Assembly: GCA_039196715.1 (NCBI GenBank)
Contig: JBCCUP010000043.1
Coordinates: 1 to 38,938, forward strand
Length of the DNA: 38,938 nucleotides
Direction: 5' to 3'
Origin: Pseudomonadota bacterium
GTDB taxonomy: Bacteria; Pseudomonadota; Gammaproteobacteria; CALCKW01
In this document: positions 5,704-16,371 of the stretch, one piece after another
Layout: each line of letters opens with the position of its first letter
Position numbering within the stretch: the stretch's first letter is position 1
The notes under the pieces: generated by a model
What the model saw: only the letters and a program-made list of their open reading frames with translations
Told to the model about the DNA's origin: nothing
Databases searched by the model: none
Translations under genes and position numbers: made by a program

Positions 5704-6564
5704 TCACTGCCGCACGGCACGCGGTGACATGCCTGTGACTTTTTTGAATTGCCGGCTGAAGTAGGATGGGTCGGCAAAGCCGAGCGCGTATGCCACCTCC
5801 GACACACTGAGGGCGGTGAAACGCAGCAAGCGCTGCGCCTCGAGGCATTTGCGCCGGTTGACCACCACCACCGGGCTCAGGCTTAGGCACGCCGTCGTCG
5901 CCCGCCGCAGGGTCCGCTCGGTCACCTTGAGGCGCTCGCAGTAGTCGCCAATGGTGTCATCGCGCGTGTAGTGCCGCTCCACGTCTTCGATGAAGGCGTC
6001 TACCAATTGCTGCTGAGCGTTCACACCGATGACCGTCGGCTCGGCGTGTTGCTCACAGGCTGCGACGGCGTCGCTGACCAACCGAAGCGCCGAGGTGGTG
6101 ACATGCAGACGGCGGCCCGACTCGCTGAAGCAGCGCCACAGCGCCGCGCCGCTGGCAAACACGCCGTGATCTGCTGCGAGCGGTACCCAACGCGGCGCTG
6201 CGAGGAGTGAGAGCCAGCCGCGATCACCGGTCAGGCGCTCGTACTCTCGCAACAGCGCGTGGCTGATCGACACGACCTGGCCCGCCGCACCGGGCGAGAA
6301 GGCGAACTGGTGCACGACCATCGCTGGCACGATCAGCACACCCGCGCCGCGGAGCTGCAGGCGCTCGGCGTCCAGCTGGCAGTCGGCCCGACAGCGCTCG
6401 ATGACAAAGAACTGAAACAGATCGCTGTGCCGATGGCGACGGATGCGGTGCTCGTGCCGCACGATGCTGGCGGCCAGGCATTCGACGTGGATGTCGTCCA
6501 GCGCCAGGGCACTGCGCGAACTGCCGTAGACGGCCGGTGCCGGGATCAGGGTGTCGCTGGCCAT
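5704..6564 (-). CDS. pobR: AraC-family regulator, probable activator of pobA (PobR-like)
   Basis: This is a DNA-binding regulator with an N-terminal cupin-like effector domain and a C-terminal AraC double helix-turn-helix. The last 90 residues carry the family signature (VSEVAYALGFADPSYFSRQF, then KKVTGMSPRAVR). It faces pobA, the usual place for the AraC-type PobR that senses 4-hydroxybenzoate; the effector is inferred from this position. I prefer the internal ATG at 6564. It leaves a 94-bp regulatory gap, and its N terminus (MASDTLIPAPAVYG) resembles PobR proteins. The longer frame from 6615 adds 17 residues without a visible ribosome binding site. GAGG stands only 2 bases before 6564, so the start is uncertain. 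Confidence 0.82.
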   Translation of the reverse strand: MASDTLIPAPAVYGSSRSALALDDIHVECLAASIVRHEHRIRRHRHSDLFQFFVIERCRADCQLDAERLQLRGAGVLIVPAMVVHQFAFSPGAAGQVVSISHALLREYERLTGDRGWLSLLAAPRWVPLAADHGVFASGAALWRCFSESGRRLHVTTSALRLVSDAVAACEQHAEPTVIGVNAQQQLVDAFIEDVERHYTRDDTIGDYCERLKVTERTLRRATTACLSLSPVVVVNRRKCLEAQRLLRFTALSVSEVAYALGFADPSYFSRQFKKVTGMSPRAVRQ

Positions 6565-6617
6565 GGCCTCGAAGACAGACACTGCAATGTCCGAAAAGTA
6601 CCCGTATTTGCACATTT

Positions 6618-6658: not shown

Positions 6659-7840
6659 ATGAGCAAAACCTTCCGCACCGCGGTCGCGATCATTGGCGGC
6701 GGCCCGTCCGGCATGCTGTTGGCACAGACCCTTGCGCGCGCCGGCATTGAAAGCGTGGTGCTGGAGCGCACCAGCCGGGCGTGTGTGCTCGCACGCATCC
6801 GCGCCGGGGTACTGGAGTGGGGCTCCGTCGAGACGCTGCGTGCGGCGGGTGTCGGCGAACGAATGGACCGGGAGGGCATTGTGCACACCTCGGTGGGCAT
6901 GGCGTGGGACGACAGCGCGCACCTGATCGACATCGCACACGCGTCGGGCCGCTCGATGATGGCCTTCGGCCAGACCGCGCTGACCGAGGAGCTGTACGCC
7001 GCCCGCGCGGCTGACGGCCAGGCCGTGTTCCACGGTGTCGAGACAGTCAGCCTGCACGACGTGACCGGCACGCCGAGCATCCGATTCGAGCACGAGGGCA
7101 CTGCCCACACCCTGCAGTGCGACATCATCGCCGGGTGCGACGGCTACCACGGCGTGAGCCGCCAGGCGATTCCGGCTGACAAACGTCGGGAATTCGAGAA
7201 GGTCTACCCCTTCGGCTGGCTCGGCATCATGTCGGAGACCCCGCCCTTGCCAGAGCTCTGGTATGGGGCCGGCGAGCGTGGTTTCTGCCTCGCCTCGCAA
7301 CGCAACCCGATGCTGAGCCGCTACTACGTGCAGTGCCCGTTGTCGGACACCGTCGAGGACTGGTCCGACGACCGCTTCTGGTCGGAGCTGACCGCGCGCC
7401 TGCCCGCGCACCTCGCGGACCAGGTTGTCACCGGCCCGTCGATCGAAAAGTCGATCGCGCCGCTGCGCAGTTTCGTGTGCGAACCCATGCAGTGGGGCAA
7501 GCTGTTTCTCGTCGGTGACGCCGCGCACATCGTGCCCCCGACGGGCGCGAAGGGGCTGAACCTCGCGATCTCCGACGTGCACTACCTGTCGCGCGGCCTG
7601 ATCGAACACTATCGCAGCGGCGACAGCACCCGGCTGCAGGCCTACTCGGACACCGCCTTGCGGCGCGTTTGGGCGACAACCAAATTCAGTTGGCAGATGA
7701 CCAATCTGCTGCACCGCTTCCCCGAGAACGACGCAATTGATATCCGCCTGAAACGGGCGGAGTACGATTTCCTGACCCAAAACACCCTGGCTCAGGCCGC
7801 GCTCGGCGTACAGTACGCCGGCGTGCCCTACGAAGACTGA
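6659..7840 (+). CDS. pobA: 4-hydroxybenzoate 3-monooxygenase
   Basis: PobA is an FAD-dependent aromatic hydroxylase that converts 4-hydroxybenzoate to protocatechuate using NADPH and oxygen. The 393-residue protein aligns from end to end with the Pseudomonas enzyme. The FAD dinucleotide fold is I-I-G-G-G-P-S-G (11-18), and the flavin/NADPH motifs GCDGYHGVSR and VGDAAHIVPPTGAKG are intact. The substrate-pocket tyrosines in SRYYVQ and near the C terminus (YAGVPYED) are present. It is the first gene of the catabolic run and supplies the substrate of LigAB. ATG 6659 is the only sensible in-frame start. Confidence 0.96.
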   Translation: MSKTFRTAVAIIGGGPSGMLLAQTLARAGIESVVLERTSRACVLARIRAGVLEWGSVETLRAAGVGERMDREGIVHTSVGMAWDDSAHLIDIAHASGRSMMAFGQTALTEELYAARAADGQAVFHGVETVSLHDVTGTPSIRFEHEGTAHTLQCDIIAGCDGYHGVSRQAIPADKRREFEKVYPFGWLGIMSETPPLPELWYGAGERGFCLASQRNPMLSRYYVQCPLSDTVEDWSDDRFWSELTARLPAHLADQVVTGPSIEKSIAPLRSFVCEPMQWGKLFLVGDAAHIVPPTGAKGLNLAISDVHYLSRGLIEHYRSGDSTRLQAYSDTALRRVWATTKFSWQMTNLLHRFPENDAIDIRLKRAEYDFLTQNTLAQAALGVQYAGVPYED

Positions 7841-9102
<1,262 letters not shown>

Positions 9103-9103
<1 letters not shown>

Positions 9104-10053
9104 TGCGCATCGCCATGGCCGGCAACGGCGCCTTTGCCAACAAGCACCTCGACGCCGTGGCCCGCATCGACGGGGTCGAGGTCGTCACCATCGTCGGGCG
9201 CGAGGGCGACGACGATGGGTTGCGTGCTGTCGCGGAGAAGCACGCCATCGCGGACTGCACCACCGACTTCGACAGCGCGCTGGCGCGTGAGGACGTGGAC
9301 GCAGTGATCCTCACCACACCGACACAGTTGCACGCCGCGCAGGCGATCGCCTGCCTAGAGGCCGGCAAGCACGTGATGACCGAAATTCCGATGGCCGACA
9401 ACCTCGCCGACAGCGAGGCCCTGGTGGCCAAGCAACGCGAGACCGGTCTGGTGGCGATGGTCGACCACACGCGCCGGTTCAACCCGAGCCACCAGTGGCT
9501 GCACACGCAATTTGCCGCTGGCGAGCTCAGGCTCCAGCACCTCGTGGTCGAGACCTACTTCTTCCGACGCACCAACACCAACGCCCTCGGCGAACCGCGC
9601 TGCTGGACCGACCACCTGCTCTGGCACCACGCCTGCCACACTGTCGACCTGTTCCAGTACCAGACCGACGAAATCGCCAGTCACGTGCAGGCCATGCAAG
9701 GCCCGACACACCCCGAGCTCGGCATCGCGCTCGACATGAGCATCGGTATGAGTGTGCCCTCAGGCGCGTTGTGCACCCTGAGCCTGTCGTTCAACAACGA
9801 CGGGCCGCTCGGCACCTTTTTCCGCTACATCTGCGACAAGGGCACCTGGATAGCGCGCTACGACGACCTGGTCGACGGCCGTGAACAACCGGTGGACGTG
9901 TCCGAGGTCGACGTGAGCACCGACGGTATCGAGCTCGCCGACCGCGAGTTCATCGCCGCCATCCGCGAGGGACGTGAGCCCAACAGTTCGGTGGCGCAGG
10001 GGTTGCCGGCAATGCAAACCCTGGATCGTCTCGAACGCGTGCTGCACGGGTAG
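9103..10053 (+). CDS. ligC: 4-carboxy-2-hydroxymuconate-6-semialdehyde dehydrogenase
   Basis: LigC oxidises the hemiacetal form of the ring-cleavage product to 2-pyrone-4,6-dicarboxylate with NAD(P)+. The 316-residue protein belongs to the Gfo/Idh/MocA oxidoreductase family. It has an N-terminal Rossmann fold (MAGNGAFANKHLDAV, 5-19), the TTPTQLHA loop, an E-I-P in place of the usual E-K-P motif (GKHVMTEIP), and DHTRRFNPSHQW in the substrate half. Its place directly behind ligB, with a 1-base overlap (TGATG at 9101-9105), makes the specific assignment safe. Confidence 0.93.
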
Positions 10054-10058
10054 TTGCC

Positions 10059-10931
10059 ATGCCCAGTCCCGGTTACCTGCCCTGGCACCCCAGTCCGAAG
10101 CGACCCGACACCGCGTTGCCGGCCGGGGCCTGCGACGCGCACTGCCACGTGTTCGGCCCCGCTGCCGACTTCCCCTTCGCCCCCACGAGCACCTACGAAC
10201 CCGTGGATGCCTCGGCGACGGACCTCTTCGCGCTGCACAAACACCTCGGCATCGCGCGTTCGGTTATCGTGCAGGCGAGCTGTCATGGCACCAACAACGA
10301 CGCTATGGCCGATGCGCTGGTTCGCGGCGGCGACAACTACCGCGGCGTTGCGGTGGTCGCCAACACGGTGAGCGAGGAAGAACTGCAAGCCCTGCACAAC
10401 GCTGGCGTGCGCGGCGTGCGCTTCAACTTCGTCAAACGGCTCGGTGGCGGCAAGCCCTTCGACTACTACGCGCCGATCATCGACAAGGTCGCTGCGCTGC
10501 AGTGGAGTGTCGTGGTCTACCTCGAAGCGCACGACCTCGCCGAGATCGCCCCGTTCATCCAGCGGATTCCCGTCCCGGTGGTCATCGATCACATGGGCCG
10601 GGTGCCGGTACAGGCCGGCACGACGTCGGACAGCTACCGACTGCTGGCGAGCCTGCTCGAAGACGACCACTTCTGGGTCAAGATCAGCTGCCCGGAGCGG
10701 CTGTCCCAGTCCGGCCCGCCGTATGCCGACGTCGACACAGTCGCCCGCGCGCTGCTCGCGCACTGCCCCGATCGCGTCCTCTGGGGCACTGACTGGCCTC
10801 ACCCCAACATGAAATCGCACATGCCGGACGACGGTCTGCTGGTCGACCGCCTGGTCAGCGTCTGCGACCACGACAGCGCGGTGCTGCAGCGCGTGCTGGT
10901 GGACAACCCGACACGCCTCTACTGGAGCTGA
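10059..10931 (+). CDS. ligI: 2-pyrone-4,6-dicarboxylate hydrolase (lactonase)
   Basis: LigI hydrolyses 2-pyrone-4,6-dicarboxylate to 4-oxalomesaconate. It is a cog3618-type amidohydrolase that works without a divalent metal. The 290-residue protein has the family signature D-A-H-C-H-V-F-G-P (26-34, with H28 and H30), IDHMGRVP in the middle and WGTDWPHPN near the C terminus, which carries the conserved aspartate. It starts 5 bases after the ligC stop; the ribosome binding site is weak. The four-base gap to ligK indicates a common transcript. Confidence 0.93.
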   Translation: MPSPGYLPWHPSPKRPDTALPAGACDAHCHVFGPAADFPFAPTSTYEPVDASATDLFALHKHLGIARSVIVQASCHGTNNDAMADALVRGGDNYRGVAVVANTVSEEELQALHNAGVRGVRFNFVKRLGGGKPFDYYAPIIDKVAALQWSVVVYLEAHDLAEIAPFIQRIPVPVVIDHMGRVPVQAGTTSDSYRLLASLLEDDHFWVKISCPERLSQSGPPYADVDTVARALLAHCPDRVLWGTDWPHPNMKSHMPDDGLLVDRLVSVCDHDSAVLQRVLVDNPTRLYWS

Positions 10932-10934
10932 CGC

Positions 10935-11627
10935 ATGCGACACGTCGCCGTTCGCCACATCCGACGCGTCGACGCCGACACGGTCGACGCCTTCCGTTCA
11001 CAGGGTGTGGCCACCGTGCACGAGGCCTACGGCCGACAGGGCCTGTTGAAGCCCTACATGCGCCCGATCTACCCGGGCGCGCAGACCGCCGGCAGTGCCG
11101 TGACGATCCTCGCGCAACCGGGTGACAACTGGATGGTGCACGTCGCGATCGAGCTCTGCCAACCCGGCGACGTGCTGGTGGTCGCGTGCACCACCGACAA
11201 CACAGACGGCATGTTCGGCGATCTGCTCGCGACCTCGGCCAAGGCGCGCGGTGTGCGCGGCCTGGTCATCGACGCCGGGTGCCGCGATGTGCACGACCTC
11301 AAGGCCATGCAGTTCCCCGTGTGGTCACGCGCAGTCAGCGCCAAGGGCACGGTCAAGAACACCCTCGGCGCCGTCAACGTGCCGGTGGTGTGCGCGGGCC
11401 AGCTCGTGCACCCCGGCGACCTGATCGTCGCGGACGACGACGGCGTCGTGTGCGTGCGCCGCGCGGATGCCGCGGACGTGCTCGACAAAGCCGCTGCGCG
11501 CGAGGCGCTGGAAGCCGACAAGCGGAACCAGCTCGCGGCTGGCGTGTTGGGGCTGGACATGTACAACATGAGACCGGGGCTCGAGGCCGCAGGCTTCACC
11601 TACGTCGACAGCCCGGACGACCTGTAG
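10935..11627 (+). CDS. ligK: 4-carboxy-4-hydroxy-2-oxoadipate aldolase / oxaloacetate decarboxylase
   Basis: LigK performs the last step of the pathway, splitting 4-carboxy-4-hydroxy-2-oxoadipate into pyruvate and oxaloacetate; family members also decarboxylate oxaloacetate. The 230-residue protein is a class II RraA-like aldolase. It carries the [11 protein letters not shown] start block and V-I-D-A-G-C-R-D, whose Arg-Asp pair is the family's metal and substrate site. The C-terminal tail ([18 protein letters not shown]) is typical of CHA aldolases and is absent from plain RraA. GGAG lies 8 bases before ATG 10935. Confidence 0.92.
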
Positions 11628-11692: not shown

Positions 11693-12703
11693 ATGATCAT
11701 CGACTGCCACGGACACTACACCACCACCCCGCCGGGCGTCGGTGCATACCGCGACGCACAGAAAGCGGCGCTGGAGAACGACCCGGCTCACGTCGGCGAA
11801 AAAGGCGTTATGGCGGTCAGCGACGACGAAATCCGCGAATCGATCGAGACCAATCAGCTCCGATTGCAGCAGGAACGCGGCACCGACCTCACGATCTTCT
11901 CGCCCCGTGCAAGCTGGATGGGCCACCACGTCGGCAACGCAAACACGAGCCGCTTCTGGACAGAGCACCAGAACGACATCATCCGCCGCGTGTGTGACCT
12001 CTTTCCGAGCAACTTCGCCCCGGTCGCCCAGCTGCCGCAGTCACCGGGTGTGCCACCGGCCGACTCGGTGGCCGAGATCGACCGGGTCGTCGGCGGCATG
12101 GGTTTCATCGGCATCAACCTCAACCCCGACCCCTCGGGCGGCTGGTGGAACGGTGTCTCACTCGCCGACCGGGCTTTCTACCCGATCTACGAAAAGATGG
12201 TCGAGTACGATATCCCGGCGATGATCCACGTCAGCGCCGCCTGCAATCCGGCCTTTCACACCACCGGCAGTCACTACCTGGGCGCCGACACCACGGCCTT
12301 CCAGCAATTGATGATGTCCGATGTGTTCAGCGACTTCCCGTCGCTCAAGGTCATCATTCCGCACGGCGGCGGCGCCGTGCCCTACCACTGGGGCCGCTTC
12401 CGAGGGCTGGCGCAGGACCGTGGGCTGCCGACACTCGACGAACTGGTGTTGAACAACGTCTATTTCGATACCTGCGTTTACCACCAGAGCGGAATCGACC
12501 TGCTGCTGAAGGTCATCCCGGCCAAGAACATCCTGTTCGCCTCGGAGATGATCGGCGCGGTGCGCGGTGTCGACCCGGAGTCCGGCCACCATTACGACGA
12601 CACCAAACGGTACATCGACGCAAGTGAGCTCGACGCCGACGACAAGGCGATGATCTTCGAAGGCAACAGCCGGCGCGTGTTCTCTCGCCTCGCGCTGCCA
12701 TGA
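11693..12703 (+). CDS. ligJ: 4-oxalomesaconate hydratase
   Basis: LigJ adds water to 4-oxalomesaconate (enol or 4-carboxy-2-hydroxymuconate form) to give 4-carboxy-4-hydroxy-2-oxoadipate. The 336-residue protein is a zinc-dependent amidohydrolase-fold lyase that opens with I-D-C-H-G-H-Y (H6 and H8 as metal ligands). Further metal-site blocks are MIHVSA, IPHGGGAVPYH and FASEMIGAVRG. An AGGA sequence stands 7 bases before ATG 11693. The 65-bp gap from ligK is the longest in the run, but I saw no terminator in it. The stop overlaps the ligU start (ATGA). Confidence 0.93.
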   Translation: MIIDCHGHYTTTPPGVGAYRDAQKAALENDPAHVGEKGVMAVSDDEIRESIETNQLRLQQERGTDLTIFSPRASWMGHHVGNANTSRFWTEHQNDIIRRVCDLFPSNFAPVAQLPQSPGVPPADSVAEIDRVVGGMGFIGINLNPDPSGGWWNGVSLADRAFYPIYEKMVEYDIPAMIHVSAACNPAFHTTGSHYLGADTTAFQQLMMSDVFSDFPSLKVIIPHGGGAVPYHWGRFRGLAQDRGLPTLDELVLNNVYFDTCVYHQSGIDLLLKVIPAKNILFASEMIGAVRGVDPESGHHYDDTKRYIDASELDADDKAMIFEGNSRRVFSRLALP

Positions 12704-13767
12704 GCGTCGGCATCCCCTGCAGCTGGATACGCGGCGGCACGAGCAAGGGCGCCTACTTTCTCGCAAGCGACCTGCCTGCCGACGAGCCGGAACGCGACCG
12801 GGTGTTGCTCGCCATCCTCGGCAGCCCCGACCCCCGGCAGATCAACGGCATCGGCGGCGCAGACCCGCTGACCTCCAAGGTCGCGATCGTCTCGCCACCG
12901 AGTCGCACCGACGCCGACATCGATTTTCTGTTCCTGCAGGTGTTCGTCGACAAACCGGTGGTCACCGACGCACAAAACTGCGGCAACATCCTCGCAGGCG
13001 TGGTGCAGTTTGCGGTCGAACGGGGACTGCTCGCCGCCCGCGACGGCACCACCGTCGCGCGCGTGCACATGCGGAACAGCGCGCAGGTCGCCGAGGTGGA
13101 GATCCGTACCCCCGGCGCCCGCGTGACCTGGTCGGGCGACGCGCAGATCGACGGCGTGCCCGGGTCGGCGGCGCCGGTGTTGCAGAATTTCCCGGAGGCA
13201 GCCGGCAGCAACTGCAGCGCGCTGCTGCCCACCGGTAACGCGCGCGACACCGTGGCCGGCGCCGTGGTCACGCTGATCGACAACGGCATGCCCGTCGTCG
13301 TGTTGCGGGCGAGCGACTTCGGTATCAGCGGCACGGAGACCCGTGACGCGCTCGATGCCAACGACACGCTCAAGGCTGGGCTCGAACGGGTACGTCTCGC
13401 CGCGGGCCCGTTGATGAACCTCGGCGATGTCAGTGACAAGAGCGTACCGAAGATGACGCTGGTGTCGGCGCCGCAGCACGGTGGCACTGTCACGTCGCGG
13501 ACCTTCATACCCCACCGCTGCCACGCCTCGATCGGGGTGCTCGGTGCGGTCAGCGTGGCCACCGCCTGCGTGCTCGAGGGCAGCGTGTGCGACGGCATCG
13601 CGGGCAAACCCGACGCCACCGGCCGGGTGTCAGTCGAGCACCCGATCGGCGAGGTATCGGTCGTCATGGCGACGTCGATCGACGGCGGCGAACTCACGGT
13701 GAGCAAAGCCGCCGTGCTGCGCACGGCCCGAAAACTCTTTGACGGCACCGTGTACCCTGCCGACTGA
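12700..13767 (+). CDS. ligU: 4-oxalomesaconate tautomerase (PrpF family)
   Basis: This 355-residue protein belongs to the PrpF/diaminopimelate-epimerase fold family. LigU in sphingomonads, and GalD in pseudomonads, isomerise 4-oxalomesaconate before hydration by LigJ. K60 (TSKVAIV) and C94 (QNCGN) have the same 34-residue spacing as the catalytic Lys and Cys I recall for LigU. The start motif SWIRGGTSKGAYF and a late HPIGEVSVV block fit PrpF proteins. It overlaps ligJ by 4 bases, so coupling is likely. PrpF aconitate isomerase is a formal alternative, but no 2-methylcitrate genes are nearby. Confidence 0.88.
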   Translation: MSVGIPCSWIRGGTSKGAYFLASDLPADEPERDRVLLAILGSPDPRQINGIGGADPLTSKVAIVSPPSRTDADIDFLFLQVFVDKPVVTDAQNCGNILAGVVQFAVERGLLAARDGTTVARVHMRNSAQVAEVEIRTPGARVTWSGDAQIDGVPGSAAPVLQNFPEAAGSNCSALLPTGNARDTVAGAVVTLIDNGMPVVVLRASDFGISGTETRDALDANDTLKAGLERVRLAAGPLMNLGDVSDKSVPKMTLVSAPQHGGTVTSRTFIPHRCHASIGVLGAVSVATACVLEGSVCDGIAGKPDATGRVSVEHPIGEVSVVMATSIDGGELTVSKAAVLRTARKLFDGTVYPAD

Positions 13768-13786
13768 GCCCTCAGCGACGGCAACC

Positions 13787-14557
13787 ATGGCACAGCACAC
13801 CTTCGGTGTCATCGGCACCGGCCATTTCGCGTCCTACACGATCAAGGCCCTGCGTGCTGGCGGCAACACCGACCCGATCGTGCTCTCGCCGCGCAACGCC
13901 GACTACGCCGCGGCGCTCGCCCGTGACCAGGGCTGCCGCGTTGCCGAGGACAACGCCGCTGTCGTCGCGGCGGCCGACACCGTCCTGCTCGCGGTCAGAC
14001 CCCACCAGCTCGACGCCGCCCTCGCCGACCTCCGGTTCCGGCCCGAGCAGACCGTGTTGTCGTCGCTCGCAGGGGTGCCGCTCGCCACCCTGCACGACAA
14101 GGGGCTGCCAGCGCACACCGTGCGGATCATGCCATCGAGTTTCGTCGAAGCCGGCGATGCGGTGTTCCCGCTGTTCCCGCCCTCCAACGCAGTCGAGCAG
14201 CTCTTTGCCGCCGCAGGACGGGTGGTCGTGTTCGACGACGAAACCGCATTCGAGCGATCGGTGCTGATCGCCTGCGCGCACGCGTGGTGTTACGCGCTGC
14301 TCGCGCACATGACCGACTGGTTCAGCGAACACGGTTGGCCCGAGGACGTGGCCCGCGACATGGTCGTGCGCCACCTGCGCGGCACCACGACCTACGCCCT
14401 GGCACACCCCGATACGCCGTTCGACGCCATCCTCGAGGGCATTGCCACCGACGGCACCTTCACCCTGGCCGGACTCGAACACTTGCACGCGCAGGACGCA
14501 TTCCGCCCGTGGTCCGAGGCCTTCGCCCGACTCGACCGCGAACTGAACCCGAACTGA
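13787..14557 (+). CDS. ProC-like NAD(P)-binding protein at the end of the lig operon
   Basis: This 256-residue protein has the fold pattern of pyrroline-5-carboxylate reductase (ProC). An N-terminal Rossmann domain opens with FGVIGTGHFASYTIKAL, VLLAVRP follows near residue 70, and RIMPSSFVEAG replaces the usual VRxMPNTP segment. In the C-terminal helical part the ProC substrate motif (SGSGPAY) is absent and the GGTT turn is altered to D-G-T-F-T-L-A-G-L. It may therefore not act on pyrroline-5-carboxylate. It lies 19 bp after ligU on the same strand with no terminator between, so it probably belongs to the 4-hydroxybenzoate operon. Its substrate is unknown. ATG 13787 is preferred over an upstream frame that overlaps ligU. 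Confidence 0.75.
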   Translation: MAQHTFGVIGTGHFASYTIKALRAGGNTDPIVLSPRNADYAAALARDQGCRVAEDNAAVVAAADTVLLAVRPHQLDAALADLRFRPEQTVLSSLAGVPLATLHDKGLPAHTVRIMPSSFVEAGDAVFPLFPPSNAVEQLFAAAGRVVVFDDETAFERSVLIACAHAWCYALLAHMTDWFSEHGWPEDVARDMVVRHLRGTTTYALAHPDTPFDAILEGIATDGTFTLAGLEHLHAQDAFRPWSEAFARLDRELNPN

Positions 14558-14569
14558 GGCAGACGCCAC

Positions 14570-15343
14570 TCACTCCCGCGCCAAACCGAACAGCGCTGCG
14601 GTGTTGCGCTCGGCCTGCGTAACGATGTGTTCCACCGGCTGCGCGCGCAGGGCTGCCACGCAGTCGACCACCTCCGGCAGGTACGCCGGCTCGTTGCGCT
14701 CGCCGCGGTGCCGGGCACCCGGCTGGTCGGGCGCGTCGGTTTCGAGCACCCACACGTCGTCCGGCAACCGGCGCACCAGCTCACGCAACCGCGTCGCCCG
14801 GTCGTGTGTCACCGCCCCGCCGATGCCGAGGTGGAAGCCGCGGTCGATCAGGGCACAGGCTTGCTGCCAACTGCCGGAGAAACTGTGAAACACCCCGGTG
14901 AGTCCGGGCGATCGGCGAACGCGCTGCGTGGCGAGGTCGACGGCCTTGCGCGCGTGCACGATCACCGGCAATCGACGCGCCGCGGCGACGGCGATCTGCG
15001 CATCGAACAGGCTGAGCTGAACCGCCTCGGTGTCCCGCGCGTTGACGTGAAAATCGAGACCGCACTCGCCCACCGCGACCGCGTCGTGGTCATCGAGCCA
15101 GTGCTCCAGGCGTGCAGCCGCACCGGCGCCATGCGCGTCGAGGTAGCACGGGTGCAGCCCGTAGGCAGCGTGGCACAGCCGATCGGCAGCGGCCACCGCC
15201 GCCACGGCCGACCAACGCTGTTCGGTGACGGACGGCAATACGAAGCGCTCGACACCGGCCGCGCGCGCGCGCGCGACGACCGCAGCACGGTCCGGGTCGA
15301 AGGCCGGAAAGTCGAGGTGCACGTGCGAGTCGATCAGGGGCAT
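14570..15343 (-). CDS. tatD: TatD-family metal-dependent hydrolase / DNase
   Basis: TatD proteins are metal-dependent nucleases of the amidohydrolase fold. The 257-residue protein starts with MPLIDSHVHLDFPAF (metal ligands in DSHVHLD). GECGLDF, VIVHARKA, FHSFSG and VLETDAPDQP follow, all in family order. It resembles the YjjV subgroup. ATG 15343 lies inside the 3' end of the preceding aldo/keto reductase gene (10-base overlap). The frame stays open further upstream, but that part is a low-complexity Arg/Gly-rich shadow of the neighbour. It converges with the lig operon, 12 bp from its end. Confidence 0.9.
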   Translation of the reverse strand: MPLIDSHVHLDFPAFDPDRAAVVARARAAGVERFVLPSVTEQRWSAVAAVAAADRLCHAAYGLHPCYLDAHGAGAAARLEHWLDDHDAVAVGECGLDFHVNARDTEAVQLSLFDAQIAVAAARRLPVIVHARKAVDLATQRVRRSPGLTGVFHSFSGSWQQACALIDRGFHLGIGGAVTHDRATRLRELVRRLPDDVWVLETDAPDQPGARHRGERNEPAYLPEVVDCVAALRAQPVEHIVTQAERNTAALFGLARE

Positions 15344-16371
15344 GGGTTCGGCTGCCGTGCGTGCGTTTCGCCGATGGCGCGGCGCAGTGGCCGCGCTGGC
15401 GCCAGGGCCGCCGCCGCGGTGTTCTCGCGCAATTGCGCCTCGGTGCTCACCCCCATGACCACGGTCGACACCCCGGGTTGCGCCACGGTCCAGCCGAGGG
15501 CCATTGCGGCGGGTGTGACACCGTGCGCCTCGGCAATGGCGCAATACCGTCCCACCGAAGCCGTGGCGCGCTCCGTGGTGTAGCGGTCGTAGTAGTCCGG
15601 CCACCGTGCCAACCGGGTGGCATCAGGGCGAGTGCCGCCCTGGTATTTTCCACTCAGCACACCGTCGGCAAGCGGTGCGTACGCCATCAAGCCAAGCCCC
15701 TCGCGGTGCAGCACCTCGCCGAGACCGATCTCCGCGGTGCGGTTGAGCAGGTTGTAGGGGTTCTGCACGCTGACCACGCGCTGCAAGCCATGCCGTTCGG
15801 CCAACATGAGGTAGTGCATGACGCCCCAGGGCGTTTCGTTCGACAGGCCAATGTGCCGGACGCGGCCCTCTTCCACCAGCACCGTCAGCGCCTCCAGCGT
15901 TTCGAGGATGGGTGTGGCACCGTGGTCGTCGCGCGGTGCGTAGCCAAGCCGACCGAAGTAGTTGGTGCTGCGCGCGGGCCAGTGCACCTGGTAGAGATCG
16001 AGGTAGTCGGTGCAGAGCCGATCGAGGCTGGCCGACACCGCGTCTCGAATGTGCGTGCGTGTGAGCTGCGGCCCACCGCGCAGGTAGCGCAGCTTCGCAG
16101 CCGGGCCGCTGACCTTCGACGCGATGCACACACGGTCGCGGGCCTGGCGCGCCAACCAGACGCCGAGGATCGATTCGCTCGCGCCCTGCGTTTCCGCGCG
16201 CATCGGCGAGGCGTAGCTCTCGGCCGTGTCGAACGCGGTCACACCCAACGCGAGGGCGGCATCGAGCAGGTCCTGCGCGAGCGCAGCGTCAACCTGCTCG
16301 CCGAAATTCATCGTGCCAAGGGTCAGTGCACTGACCGTGGGGCCCGCCGTGCCGAGTTGACGAAGCTGCAC
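15334..16371 (-). CDS. tas: NADP(H)-dependent aldo/keto reductase, Tas-like
   Basis: This 345-residue aldo/keto reductase reduces aldehydes or ketones with NADPH; the natural substrate is unknown. The catalytic tetrad is visible as D48, Y53, K86 and H130 (FDTAESY, IASKVSG, YQVHWP). The YQVHWPAR...NYFG segment, the length and the VSVQNPYNLLNR block point to the Tas group. The start is GTG 16371, with AGGAGG 7 bases upstream, a clear ribosome binding site. The 3' end overlaps the tatD start, suggesting one transcript. Confidence 0.88.
   Translation of the reverse strand: MQLRQLGTAGPTVSALTLGTMNFGEQVDAALAQDLLDAALALGVTAFDTAESYASPMRAETQGASESILGVWLARQARDRVCIASKVSGPAAKLRYLRGGPQLTRTHIRDAVSASLDRLCTDYLDLYQVHWPARSTNYFGRLGYAPRDDHGATPILETLEALTVLVEEGRVRHIGLSNETPWGVMHYLMLAERHGLQRVVSVQNPYNLLNRTAEIGLGEVLHREGLGLMAYAPLADGVLSGKYQGGTRPDATRLARWPDYYDRYTTERATASVGRYCAIAEAHGVTPAAMALGWTVAQPGVSTVVMGVSTEAQLRENTAAAALAPARPLRRAIGETHARQPNPCP

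Follow-up and report, generated by a model that had tools for sequence, protein, structure and literature searches.

Organisation of the lig cassette

The window analysed here is a stretch of 38,938 nucleotides from a gammaproteobacterial draft genome, and it carries a catabolic cassette in which pobA, ligABC, ligI, ligK, ligJ and ligU are all present and co-directional on the + strand. The first gene, pobA (6659-7840), encodes 4-hydroxybenzoate 3-monooxygenase (TIGR02360, 565.2 bits, cut-off 538.7) and is followed by ligA and ligB, which encode protocatechuate 4,5-dioxygenase alpha (7845-8255; TIGR02792, 126.8 bits, cut-off 108.6) and beta (8252-9103; PRK13366, 420.8 bits, cut-off 317). Next come a ligC-like gene for a CHMS dehydrogenase of the GFO/IDH/MocA fold (9103-10053; OxRdtase_C, 302.9 bits), a ligI-like gene for a PDC lactonase (10059-10931; Amidohydro_2, no NCBIfam model above cut-off), ligK for CHA aldolase (10935-11627; TIGR02798, 353.9 bits, cut-off 304.5), a ligJ-like gene for an OMA hydratase (11693-12703; Amidohydro_2, no NCBIfam match) and ligU for 4-oxalomesaconate tautomerase (12700-13767; NF033377, 506.4 bits, cut-off 440). 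PobA, LigA, LigB, LigK and LigU pass curated cut-offs; LigC, LigI and LigJ are named by Pfam domain and gene order. The left flank of the cassette is an araC-family regulator gene (5704-6615, - strand; HTH_18 and AraC_binding domains), divergent from pobA. On the right lie genes for a TatD-type hydrolase (tatD; 14570-15346, - strand) and an aldo/keto reductase-like protein (akr; 15334-16371, - strand), which we count as backbone; the names of the backbone genes (tatD, akr, FIST, trmB, glyQ, glyS and others) were read from the sequence rather than taken from a profile scan. A second 4-oxalomesaconate-tautomerase-like gene, 42% identical to ligU (NF033377, 465 bits), lies elsewhere in the same genome (L076; G000:C123:6101-7138) on a contig of 8.1 kb that holds no further matches to the lig genes of the window.

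Behind ligU lies the gene that we call proCL, which runs from an ATG at 13787 to a TGA at 14557 on the + strand and encodes 256 amino acids; Pfam domains, a structure model and alignment identify the product as a paralogue on the pyrroline-5-carboxylate (P5C) reductase fold. The start at 13787 agrees with that of the sister species (L037:4263), and a TTG at 13739 was rejected, as it merely gives the longest frame. Only 19 bp separate proCL from ligU, and convergent tatD ends 12 bp past the proCL stop codon. A scan of 13400-14900, which finds consensus matches only, returned no terminator-like or sigma-70-like site; read-through from the lig genes into proCL is thus likely, judging from the sequence. 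Together with the spacing and the convergent tatD, this means that the operon can extend no further than proCL, in agreement with the preliminary description, and we infer that proCL is co-transcribed with the lig genes. The same description placed proCL outside the known 4,5-cleavage pathway, which the gene content bears out, the known steps being covered by the other genes of the operon. The route from protocatechuate to pyruvate and oxaloacetate requires no reduction, and this argues that proCL is not a core step.

Fold and sequence motifs of proCL

We found both halves of the P5C reductase fold superfamily in proCL, with the Rossmann domain F420_oxidored at 44.3 bits (cut-off 21.6) and P5CR_dimer at 32.4 bits (cut-off 25). 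The AlphaFold model of the protein has a pLDDT of 94.2 and a pTM of 0.86. When this model was used in a structure search, the first 39 rows by Z were all P5C reductases (Z 22.9-25.4 over 244-254 residues), and a shorter P5C reductase chain came next at Z 19.8. Imine reductases, which carry out NADPH-dependent imine reduction and resemble proCL in their Rossmann half, reached Z 17.1-18.0 with rmsd 4.4-5.7, below the range of the P5C reductases. The earlier suggestion that proCL keeps the ProC fold therefore stands.

Compared with ProC and PYCR1 (TIGR00112; PDB 3tri, 5uau and 2ahr), proCL has in common the whole fold, the Rossmann GxGxxA motif (GTGHFA in proCL, with SPRN after the second strand), the helical dimerisation domain and the carboxylate-binding threonine of the C-terminal loop; it differs in being only about 20% identical, in lacking the SGSGPAY kink and the GGTT turn, and in scoring below the family cut-off. 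TIGR00112 gives it 86.3 bits, under the 196.75 required of a ProC equivalog. The best-scoring NCBIfam model is PRK06476 (NF005063), itself named 'pyrroline-5-carboxylate reductase', whose match spans nearly the full length of proCL, yet at 120.5 bits it does not reach its cut-off of 254. The fold, the P5CR_dimer domain and the name of this model are what would favour a second P5C reductase, an isozyme of proline synthesis; this we regard as very unlikely, given the two scores, the loss of both ProC motifs and an ordinary proC in the same genome (G000:C18) that has LSGSGPAY and SKGGTT. The presence of that gene also rules out proCL as the only P5C reductase of the genome.

Both motif changes given in the preliminary description were recovered. 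At the SGSGPAY kink site proCL reads A-CAHAWCY, with the gap placed according to the alignment, and no proline is left in either alignment. In the model, helix 152-181 is unbroken; as a control, a ProC-side protein from an archaeon, which retains CGPGY, was modelled and shows a helix break at 169-170. Of the 58 aligned sequences, 18 of the 19 on the ProC side have the kink proline, against none of the 39 on the paralogue side. The loop ATDGTFT replaces the S-(P/K)-G-G-T-T of ProC, with its last threonine, Thr226, kept. This residue is equivalent to Thr238 of PYCR1 and Thr236 of E. coli ProC; Ile219 stands at the position of Val231 and Val229, respectively, and Phe225 takes the place of the first threonine, a position held by threonine in 15 of the 19 ProC-side rows. 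In PYCR1, according to one structural study, Thr238 binds the substrate carboxylate and, in some of the complexes, Val231 binds the amine, while the proline ring is in contact with the helix kink (PMC7939384). E. coli ProC is described as using Thr235, Thr236 and Val229 in substrate binding and is reported to reduce the six-ring P6C as well (PMC12899673). From these positions we infer that proCL remains a reductase for carboxylated imines, in which the pocket for the ring has changed. Thr226 is not invariant on the paralogue side (24 T, 12 N and 3 S of 39 rows), a point against this reading. The altered motifs are common to the whole paralogue side and so do not point to a lig role.

Phylogeny and neighbourhoods of the paralogue group

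A maximum-likelihood tree was built from 57 rows (L002, L014, L022 and L117 were left out, and L093 and L051 are the same gene). In this tree, proCL of the window, its counterpart in the sister species G001 and a protein from a Thiotrichaceae MAG form a clade (100/98), which sits with seven rhizobial genes in a group of 10 rows (99/95); the side that contains proCL is split from the ProC side by a branch supported at 100/96. Identity to proCL is 68% for G001 and 55% for the Thiotrichaceae protein, the nearest relative from outside the genus, whose gene is a solitary one, flanked by ung and a GGDEF gene (names read from sequence). Members of the wider group are annotated either as 'pyrroline-5-carboxylate reductase' or as 'NAD(P)-binding domain-containing protein', and our search of the open-access literature turned up, among the titles listed, no paper on this gene or on any activity of the group.

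Single-protein scans of viral contigs and genome contigs returned no relatives. An alignment-based query gave 25 loci with relatives, 23 of them outside the genus. The rhizobial plasmid proteins, annotated as NAD(P)-binding, are 40-46% identical to proCL and have the same ATxGT(Y/F)T loop and ACL(A/S)G(W/F) helix; their loci differ, being of an amino-acid uptake type. In all five that were read (5/5), the ProC-paralogue gene lies beside ehuABCD, an aspartate dehydrogenase gene and a GntR gene, with no match to the lig genes of the window in the stretches read. These recurrent rhizobial plasmid loci (L032-L036) also have genes for an M24 peptidase and an amidase. At L032 the aspartate dehydrogenase is over the PRK13302 cut-off; the M24 peptidase and the amidase are under those for ectoine hydrolase and AtzE, and we therefore rejected the locus as a clue to the substrate, from which none can be inferred.

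Other relatives also lie near genes for nitrogen compounds: one from Shinella zoogloeoides has a polyamine-type ABC transporter on one side and a GntR gene on the other, and more distant members follow an aminotransferase gene in Gemmobacter (annotated as aspartate aminotransferase family) and in a Rhodobacterales MAG (class III). A relative on a Deinococcus plasmid adjoins DNA polymerase genes, and one from Cocleimonas lies beside cytochrome bd-type and Rieske-type genes (read from sequence). At L121 (G751:C23, 3528-6008), a ProC-paralogue gene is co-directional with genes for a PhyH-type dioxygenase and a beta-keto acid cleavage enzyme (BKACE), with gaps of 0 and 3 bp. With DNA polymerase, cytochrome bd/Rieske and BKACE/PhyH genes among the neighbours, the putative link to nitrogen compounds is frequent and not general. 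We also observed a tandem pair of ProC-paralogue genes at L054 (1511-3031), on a Rhodospirillaceae MAG contig.

Presence and absence of the cassette within the genus

Both lig carriers within the genus, the window species and G001, have proCL (2/2). The gene order in G001 is pobA-ligI-ligK-ligJ-ligU-proCL-tatD, as in the window minus ligABC: ligI follows pobA directly (L037/L042; G001:C555, 1-600), and a ligABC set is found on another contig (L082; G001:C90), with a LigB that is 56% identical to that of the window. In a third species, G003, the site is empty (L133; G003:C144, 3279-5014). There the backbone reads kinase, glyQ, glyS, gmhB, plsC and araC, then tatD, akr, FIST and trmB; araC lies 86 bp from tatD, and the nine-gene block including proCL is missing. 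Neither LigA nor LigB was found in G003. The G002 contig runs on for 359 bases past tatD, and no match to proCL occurs in them. LigA is absent from G002, and this genome has a homologue of its own, 38-40% identical, beside branched-chain amino-acid-type ABC transporter genes.

Within the genus, proCL occurs where the cassette does and is missing where the cassette is missing; this linkage draws on two carriers and a single empty site that can be read, all in draft genomes of one genus. The empty site may reflect loss in G003 or gain in the window species and G001. The araC product of G003 is 48% identical to that of the window and its gene could be a leftover of the cassette; pobA lies elsewhere in both G003 and G002, so that in G003 the araC at the empty site need not be an orphan. 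Insertion of the lig operon upstream of an older proCL-tatD pair is ruled out, as tatD of G003 has no proCL beside it.

Between the window species and G001, proCL has a dN of 0.22 and a dS of about 1.4, the latter near saturation. Its 68% identity compares with 78-92% for the four lig genes compared (ligJ, 92%) and 61-69% for backbone genes. These values indicate that proCL is under purifying selection, with a weaker constraint than that on the pathway enzymes.

The preliminary description had allowed for an unrelated passenger. In its plain form, this would be a gene caught behind lig by chance, which moves and is lost with lig through adjacency and shares with its relatives elsewhere a function that has nothing to do with the pathway. 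We consider this a real possibility, though one we would put at short of an even chance. The faster divergence of proCL than of the lig genes, at a pace like that of the backbone, fits such a passenger, as does the place of its relatives in amino-acid, polyamine or aminotransferase loci or on their own. The comparisons within the genus speak the other way: in G001, proCL stayed beside ligU though ligABC left that operon; G003 lacks proCL and the cassette though it kept tatD; and the readable bases of G002 hold no match. The purifying selection on proCL likewise counts against a plain passenger.

Association with lig genes outside the genus

We found that LigA is absent from all ten of the out-of-genus genomes with relatives in which it was looked for, out of 23 such loci (L043, L045, L046, L047, L049, L050, L052, L053, L055 and L061, where the relative is limited to its first 67 residues). 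In the reverse direction, 64 other genomes with lig genes or ligK were examined. Of these, 59 came from the phylum sample, being the 60 of 398 genomes that exceed the ligK cut-off, chosen on ligK alone, minus that of the window; the other five (G215, G062, G076, G257 and G006) have gammaproteobacterial clusters with LigJ and LigK in the stretches read. Nine genomes over the NF033377 cut-off, with LigU as the sole window gene in the stretches read, were left out.

In none of the 64 does a ProC-like gene lie 20 kb or less from ligK, with distances read by eye and contig breaks that may hide neighbours (the G062 contig is 8.8 kb long), and 14 have no ProC-like gene at all. The nearest pairs, 21 kb apart in G006 and 25 kb in G561, both involve genes that score as ordinary ProC. 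A member of the paralogue group occurs in four of the 64, placed by the tree in G215, G567 and G309 and by score in G514, and in each case lies on another contig than ligK or 129 kb away. In the set examined, orthologues are found mostly outside lig clusters, the outcome that the preliminary description had itself named as a refutation. Thus, in these genomes proCL is not a regular component of lig operons outside the genus, and the two counts (0/10 for LigA and 0/64 for linkage to ligK) argue against an ancestral lig role. Both counts, and the distant placement of the four paralogues, fit a passenger.

The same survey bears on whether proCL could be a hidden redox variant of the pathway that reduces or oxidises a keto acid intermediate, e.g. 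OMA or CHA. Its identical position behind ligU in both carriers would be in keeping with this, but no known step is left for it to fill, and in the stretches read the five gammaproteobacterial LigJ and LigK clusters have no such gene. We accordingly give this reading very little credence.

Proposed role of proCL

The reading that we favour, with a little better than an even chance of being right, is that proCL is an imino-acid reductase which a lig cassette specific to this genus has taken up, and that it is accessory there and performs no pathway step; this estimate refers to its class and its place. On this account, proCL would be an enzyme with the P5C reductase fold that uses NAD(P)H to reduce an imine with a carboxylate group, probably a nitrogen-containing compound other than the substrate of ProC. 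It would derive from a paralogue group distinct from ProC, with members often in loci for the uptake and use of amino acids or polyamines, and would have been recruited once, becoming the last gene of the pobA-lig cassette in an ancestor that the window species shares with one sister species. The enzyme would now be made together with those of 4,5-cleavage, carrying out none of the steps from protocatechuate to pyruvate and oxaloacetate. It may instead remove or salvage a nitrogen-containing by-product of the running pathway, for which ammonia adducts of CHMS and imines of the pathway keto acids are candidates, or handle an unrelated imino acid.

The ring-cleavage semialdehyde, CHMS, is normally removed by LigC, which counts against an adduct role for proCL. 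The glutamate dehydrogenase RjGDH5 of R. jostii belongs to an enzyme family unrelated to that of proCL. In a 2026 report, RjGDH5 turns CHMS and ammonia into dihydropyridine dicarboxylates, and 2,4-PDCA also forms without GDH5, to a lesser extent (PMC13254512). The preliminary description had supposed that the semialdehyde reacts with ammonia to give cyclic by-products, and these findings are in accord with it. The products of CHMS and ammonia belong to the carboxylated cyclic imines on which enzymes of this fold act, so the adduct idea is chemically sound, and it is chemically credible that proCL could handle ammonia adducts of the ring-cleavage semialdehyde. Like the proposed proCL, RjGDH5 as described there uses NAD(P)H for amine/imine chemistry on the product of 4,5-cleavage; the difference is that RjGDH5 makes the dihydropyridine, whereas proCL would remove it.

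In its specific form, the proposal is that proCL reduces the cyclic imines of the CHMS-ammonia dihydropyridine dicarboxylates before they are oxidised to dead-end 2,4-pyridinedicarboxylate. The kept carboxylate threonine, the replaced first threonine and kink, and the place of proCL as last gene of the cassette are compatible with it, but several observations weigh against: no such gene lies beside the other lig or ligK genes examined, the genome of the 55% identical relative is without LigA, and the motif changes are shared by paralogues unlinked to lig. Furthermore, by atom count the non-enzymatic formation of 2,4-PDCA involves no redox step, so that a reductase would have to act early. We therefore think it rather improbable that proCL acts in this way, and assign an equally small probability to its being a dedicated clean-up reductase for CHMS-ammonia dihydropyridine-2,4-dicarboxylates, which would make it the first of its group for which a physiological substrate is known. 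Since the adduct role falls within the accessory reading, the readings overlap, and the likelihoods given to them need not sum to one.

In the open-access literature, we found nothing that joins protocatechuate, P5C reductase and ligJ, and nothing on Granulosicoccaceae with protocatechuate or on carboxy-2-hydroxymuconate with imine reductase. Should proCL be no more than a passenger, it would illustrate on a small scale how a gene is recruited into a catabolic cassette. If the role on CHMS adducts were true, bacteria with 4,5-cleavage would face a by-product problem that engineers exploit for pyridine dicarboxylates, and engineers would gain a gene that they could leave out or put to work. The clear context of proCL and the one natural empty site make it a convenient starting point in the search for a substrate in the wider ProC-paralogue group.
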